Shown piece by piece: positions 14,143 to 14,286 of a stretch of 34,605 nt of DNA (position 1 is the first letter of the stretch; every line of letters starts with the position of its first letter). The stretch comes from Methanosarcinaceae archaeon. Lineage in GTDB: Archaea; Halobacteriota; Methanosarcinia; Methanosarcinales; Methanosarcinaceae. The position numbers and the translations under genes are program-made. The notes under the pieces are model-generated. The model had not been told where the DNA came from, searched no databases, and saw nothing but the letters and a program-made list of their open reading frames with translations. The stretch lies in NCBI GenBank assembly GCA_021106765.1, contig JAIOTO010000022.1:1-34605 (forward strand), in the 5' to 3' direction.

Positions 14143-14150
14143 TTTATATT
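14143..14150 (+). promoter_or_regulatory. TATA box upstream of the candidate RNA
   Basis: TTTATATT lies about 27 bases before the first base of the hairpin cluster and is not positioned for the DtxR gene, which has its own TATA. This spacing is the archaeal norm for a transcript beginning near 14170. Confidence 0.5.
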
Positions 14151-14169
14151 TACAAATAATATGAATGTG

Positions 14170-14286
14170 AAGTTGGAATCAAAGGATTGTGATTCTGGTG
14201 CCCCCGAGTTGCCAGCCCCCGAGTCGCGCCTCGGGAGGGCGCGTCCGTTTCGCTAGCGCTCAAGCGGACTAAATGTTGTTTTTTTT
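14170..14286 (+). ncRNA. Candidate GC-rich three-hairpin RNA
   Basis: A GC-rich island in AT-rich intergenic DNA. Hairpin 1 is GAATCA (14176-14181) with TGATTC (14190-14195). Hairpin 2 is CCCGAG (14218-14223) with CTCGGG (14230-14235); a second copy of CCCCCGAGT at 14201 can replace the first arm, and CGCGCC (14225-14230) can pair instead with GGCGCG (14238-14243). Hairpin 3 is GTCCGTTT (14243-14250) with AAGCGGAC (14262-14269), whose loop holds the self-complementary CGCTAGCG. A U8 tract (14279-14286) follows. A TATA box sits about 27 bases before the predicted start. No open frame explains it. It could be a small RNA gene or a dispersed palindromic element; the strand is inferred from the TATA and U-tract. 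Confidence 0.55.

Follow-up and report, generated by a model that had tools for sequence, protein, structure and literature searches.

What occupies the intergenic DNA between truD and a DtxR-type gene in this Methanosarcinaceae archaeon, where several hairpins stand in a row on the strand of both genes? The window, i.e. the whole stretch of DNA analysed, comprises 34,605 nucleotides (contig JAIOTO010000022.1). The earlier note had described hairpins, a TATA box, a U8 tract, a doubled hairpin arm and a third possible pairing at 14143–14286, and all of these are in place: the TATA-like TTTATATT (14143–14150), the hairpin arms GAATCA/TGATTC (14177–14182/14191–14196), CCCGAG/CTCGGG (14218–14223/14230–14235) and GTCCGTTT/AAGCGGAC (14243–14250/14262–14269, one U-G pair), the self-complementary CGCTAGCG in the loop of the last hairpin (14251–14258), two copies of CCCCCGAGT (at 14201 and 14216), and CGCGCC (14225–14230) with GGCGCG (14238–14243). 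Taken alone, this single copy holds nothing beyond chance. Its folding energy does not differ significantly from that of shuffled sequence (z = -1.26 for 14170–14286, z = -0.65 for 14201–14272), TTTATATW occurs five times in the window (2.4 expected) and T8 twice (0.9 expected), and a tRNA/tmRNA search of the window returned none. The element stands above chance because 14201–14272 recurs in its own and related genomes, with E-values down to 4e-25, and because its helices covary. This segment is the only part found in other copies and is the actual repeat unit, in place of the longer 14143–14286 first delimited. The parts of the window copy and its flanks are as follows.

14201–14215, + strand: left tandem half-unit CCCCCGAGTTGCCAG, an extra 5' arm plus loop of hairpin A
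14218–14235, + strand: hairpin A (helix S1), CCCGAG, loop TCGCGC, CTCGGG; conserved and covarying
14226–14228, + strand: loop strand GCG of the pseudoknot, partner of 14240–14242; G-C/C-G/U-A covariation, 1.18 bits
14240–14242, + strand: linker strand CGC of the pseudoknot, partner of 14226–14228; G-C/C-G/U-A covariation, 1.18 bits
14243–14269, + strand: hairpin B, GTCCGTTT, loop CGCTAGCGCTC, AAGCGGAC; covarying, with a conserved U-G pair
14270–14272, + strand: TAA, with which the conserved tail TAATTTATGG begins (T 94%, A 71%, A 71% among copies)
14143–14196, + strand: outside the element, TATA-like motif and GAATCA/TGATTC hairpin; absent from other copies
14279–14286, + strand: outside the element, T8 tract; absent from other copies, and T8 is near its chance rate

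Little of the tail is retained in the window copy. The doubled CCCCCGAGT, previously read as two arms competing for one partner, is real as a duplication and is explained as one left tandem unit plus the core; a CCCCCGAGTTGCCAG-type unit also precedes hairpin A in another copy (L002), and relatives have it in arrays.

Matches to 14143–14286 were found at three further places in the 1.74-Mb draft genome of the same organism, only over approximately 14201–14272. Copy numbers rest on covariance-model and pattern searches. The covariance model R1, which covers hairpins A and B, recovered four clear copies in this genome and matches in 77 of the 186 genomes of the order Methanosarcinales; the order-wide scan scored 30 candidates per genome, a number that most Methanosarcina genomes reach, so that their counts are to be read as at least 30. 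By the two kinds of search, Methanosarcina genomes carry tens of copies. Dispersed copies were the outcome that the earlier note had set against its RNA gene, and it is the one observed, both here and in the relatives. Among the matches listed are Methanosarcina, other Methanosarcinaceae, MAGs named only Euryarchaeota and one Methanococcoides. Of 394 genomes of the phylum, 21 had a strict hairpin-A pattern (reversed control, 0); all 21 belong to Methanosarcinales, with 40 matches in genome G159 and 25 in another genome, and clusters reach a density of ~14–25 per Mb (400 kb of G159, 285 kb of G174, 220 kb of G162, 280 kb of G171). Carriage by viruses was rejected, as the hairpin-B pattern had no match in 2.9 million viral contigs. 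Rfam gave no match for the window at the gathering threshold, nor for eight copy-bearing loci at a permissive threshold, and the open-access literature yielded no paper on such a Methanosarcina repeat and none containing pieces of its sequence; the family appears undescribed in Rfam and the searched open literature.

The consensus is CCCGAR-TTGCGC-YTCGGG-AGTA-CGCG-GTCCKTTTCGCT(n)CGCTCAAGMGGAC-TAATTTATGG, with a core unit of about 51–57 nt in which hairpin A, with its pseudoknot, is directly followed by hairpin B. The paired substitutions in the stems that the earlier note had proposed as a check are present among the copies; related sequences share changes, and covariation counts are therefore not counts of independent events. 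Helix S1 shows double changes, e.g. C-G to G-C and C-G to A-U, whose number is inflated in alignment A3, which probably has a few rows with the model placed on the hairpin of an optional module. The S1 loop pairs with the linker before hairpin B, and the variable pair of this helix occurs as G-C, C-G and U-A (mutual information 1.18 bits, 93% paired). The same pairing is intact in 97.8% of the cells of alignment A2, whose filter required pairing in S1 and in B but not in the pseudoknot, and in 39 of 39 model-chosen copies. As judged from these sequence comparisons, the loop–linker pairing, which corresponds to the CGCGCC/GGCGCG alternative noticed earlier, is an H-type pseudoknot. In hairpin B, two to three pairs covary. 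Its U-G pair is kept in 45 of 45 distinct model-found copies, with the loci behind the listing of named organisms chosen with the U-G letters fixed, and is C-G in the own-genome copy L003 by reading of its sequence. Since the opposite strand would have a C-A mismatch in place of U-G, the + strand of the window is the folding strand. Position 6 of the hairpin A loop also covaries with the linker AGNN (C-A, A-C, G-G and T-A; 0.67 bits); these combinations are not standard pairs and may reflect base triples or shared descent.

Copies differ in the number and kind of their modules. Left of hairpin A there can be 1–7 copies of the 5' arm plus loop unit, left arrays in G159 are also made of copies of hairpin A plus the 5' half of B, and two copies (L186, L200) continue to the right of B with copies of the 3' half of B plus tail. 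A subset has an optional two-hairpin module, ATCACAG AAAATCGGAGATTTTCT GGGA GTTGCACTGCAAGTGCAAC AGCA, between hairpin A and the pseudoknot strand. An origin of the arrays by insertions nested in hairpin loops was considered; it fails for left arrays without matching right halves. Downstream of many copies in G159 (e.g. L185, L187, L192, L195) there is a dispersed sequence, ...GTACAACCTTATTCACT..TCATGTCGTTTTTGTCACGCTCGACGNAGGAGAGCGGCTTTC, possibly an extra module.

Orthologous sites differ in occupancy. At one locus (L028), G159, G174 and G161 have the element, with unequal unit numbers in G159 and G174, and the nine other Methanosarcina genomes fetched there do not; at three more orthologous sites, some species carry it and at least one other lacks it. 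The cleanest site is empty in G159 (TTTAAT/GAAGAGCAG) and filled in G174 (TCTAATT-[CCCGAG...GAGGAC]-GAAGGCAG), where the insertion lies two bases past the gene's own stop codon, and no target duplication is visible at this single site. Only one empty site is this clean, and some sites may represent loss rather than gain. The left ends have no fixed target motif beyond seeming remnants of older units and stop codons. No gene family adjoining the copies is specifically linked to them; the recurrent ones, such as a nucleotidyltransferase/HEPN-like pair identified by reading sequences, are simply common.

With genes called by open reading frame only, the copy begins 0–4 nt past a same-strand stop codon in 22 of 136 independent flanks (12 TAA, 10 TGA, no TAG), as compared to 0–5 copies in equal-size windows farther from stop codons. 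Random intergenic placement at the same loci predicts 1.07 of 124 independent copies at 0–5 nt after a same-strand stop, against 19 found, and the maximum in 200,000 random placements was 8. The window's own genome supplies an example in L003 (...GAGTTC TAA AAG CCCGAG). Facing genes on the opposite strand are equally close less often (5 vs 25, raw counts), a weaker contrast, since the element has a less clear-cut right end. Most copies do not adjoin a stop codon, and the adjacency that exists is either an insertion preference or the result of selection. One copy (L010, G015:C14:944589-944640) begins a few bases past the 3' end of a putative tRNA gene, and the preference may therefore be for gene ends in general.

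We consider it likely that this feature of the window belongs to a family of modular, non-autonomous repeats, dispersed in Methanosarcinales, which are mobile and, when transcribed, fold in 3' UTRs. An enzyme provided in trans would insert such a repeat into intergenic DNA, with selection for folding of one strand (+ in the window), whether as single-stranded DNA in transit or as RNA; either a single-stranded-DNA (REP-like) route or an RNA route would fit a one-strand fold. Many copies would land, or be kept, right after a stop codon in sense orientation, where they would form the start of the 3' UTR, fold in the mRNA and plausibly act on termination, on 3'-end decay or on the release of ribosomes, effects that have been proposed for REPs of bacteria. 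Counting against this reading are the lack of a mobilising enzyme and of a target duplication, the mere four copies in the own genome, and the strong stop-codon adjacency, which could point to a host function rather than mere dispersal. Y1 transposases, TnpB and reverse transcriptases are common in Methanosarcina; none scored above the cut-off in the window's own genome (draft, 95% complete by estimate), they are rarely near copies, and a copy lies within the fetched flank at 3–4 of 30 Y1 loci. As none of the three is consistently linked to copies, all were rejected as mobilisers in cis.

REPs and BIMEs (GTAG and CGTC families) are short folded intergenic repeats located mostly downstream of coding regions, and a share of those in E. 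coli, found no more than 15 nt past a stop codon, are reported to stall ribosomes (PMC3733652, PMC12306157). A REP is defined as a palindrome of 20–40 bp with a terminal GTAG or CGTC, and in GTAG families only, a RAYT (Y1) gene is flanked by the repeats (PMC3733652, PMC12306157). The archaeal element resembles REPs in its many intergenic copies, mostly downstream of coding regions, and perhaps in how it behaves, but has two hairpins and a pseudoknot on 51–57 nt instead of one palindrome, a consensus CCCGAR...GGACTAA without terminal GTAG or CGTC, no linked RAYT, half-unit arrays and an archaeal host. It is not a MITE by its ends, as the CCCGAR start and the GGAC end are not inverted repeats, and there is no duplication at the single clean site. 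BOX elements of Streptococcus pneumoniae are modular with a variable number of inner modules, structured if transcribed and slow in turnover, and their mobilising enzyme is unknown (PMC3049150). Left and right half-unit arrays, the optional module and the lack of a known enzyme are similar in the archaeal element, which has a presumably different sequence, another host domain and another module logic, its arrays repeating hairpin halves, and which shows a sharp stop-codon adjacency. Because of these likenesses to REP and BOX and the absence of an Rfam match or paper, we file the family under small dispersed structured repeats and not under small RNA genes. It is a modular repeat with a pseudoknot in model methanogens, and its marked stop-codon adjacency parallels that of REPs in E. 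coli, across the boundary between domains of life; the tractable genetics of Methanosarcina makes any effect of such repeats on translation termination or mRNA decay, and their mover, directly testable.

In a bolder version, which we entertain only tentatively, a selfish RNA-structured repeat would target stop codons or be kept at them, form a functional unit with the stop and spread by a new folded-strand route; the pseudoknot, 0–4 nt past a sense-strand TAA or TGA, would then stall ribosomes, alter termination or protect the 3' end. We know of no selfish stop-codon-targeting pseudoknot repeat described in archaea. Viral readthrough pseudoknots, e.g. at murine leukaemia virus gag-pol, are H-type and lie behind a stop codon at a spacer of about 8 nt. 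The archaeal element is likewise an H-type pseudoknot on the sense strand just past the stop; in contrast, its spacer is 0–4 nt, the stops are TAA or TGA with no TAG among 22, and it is a dispersed repeat that is mostly not stop-adjacent.

A more specific form of the dispersed-repeat explanation is a miniature IS200/IS605-type element, in other words a true REP that a Y1 (RAYT-like) transposase would move in the form of single-stranded DNA. The strand-specific hairpins, the one clean empty site without visible target duplication, and the common Y1 genes of Methanosarcina, with three copies near one, would suit it, but we regard it as unlikely given an own genome without Y1 or TnpB above the cut-off, an element found at hardly any Y1 or TnpB locus, a consensus without the GTAG/CGTC tag and a left end without a fixed target motif. 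It is similarly doubtful that the element is no selfish repeat at all and was selected behind stop codons as a 3'-UTR element beneficial to the host: sense-strand adjacency and the conserved pseudoknot are what this predicts, yet most copies lie away from stop codons, their orientation is mixed, and orthologous sites lack conservation from species to species.

It is very unlikely that the element serves the downstream DtxR-type gene as a cis-regulatory leader or attenuator, or truD as a terminator. It lies between both genes on their strand with a stable hairpin ahead of T8, but was found upstream of none of 29 DtxR-type orthologues, though the gene itself is conserved, while other copies adjoin unrelated genes in both orientations and the U-tract is not conserved. 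Regulation of DtxR was rejected on the 29 orthologues, which together with the mixed gene orientation around copies argue against a gene-specific role and make the window copy most simply a lineage-specific insertion. Its place between truD and the DtxR-type gene is probably neutral, and accidental effects of this single copy on either gene may occur. The independent small-RNA gene of ~117 nt proposed in the earlier note, with a TATA box of its own and a U tract as terminator, is highly improbable: the TATA is at a suitable distance, a T8 is present and the fold is RNA-like and covarying, but the TATA, first hairpin and T8 are local flank of a dispersed repeat and absent from all other copies, so that promoter and terminator are not kept in homologues, both motifs are near their chance rate, and orthologous loci show no conservation. 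Unannotated copies will confound small-RNA and terminator predictions in host genomes.

Hairpin A also occurs in other settings. At two loci of the window's own genome (L367, G000:C40:38297-38356; L368, C70:39052-39101), the second hairpins that come after hairpin A and its pseudoknot strand are different ones, for example GAAGTATC...GATACTTC enclosing the same CGCTACGCTC loop, and module A is therefore common to several repeat families. In G030 and G038, from another family of the order (L011, L013, L017, L019, L022), hairpin A forms part of a longer element, likewise dispersed, whose hairpins are of the ACGTATGCC/GGCATACGT type and which lies between the flanks AACCGCAGATGAACG and GATGAACGCAGATT; the CCCAGAG/CTCTGG variants are compensatory. 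At G157:C1:400341-400439, hairpin A and the pseudoknot strand are repeated four times in tandem with a spacing of exactly 25 bp.
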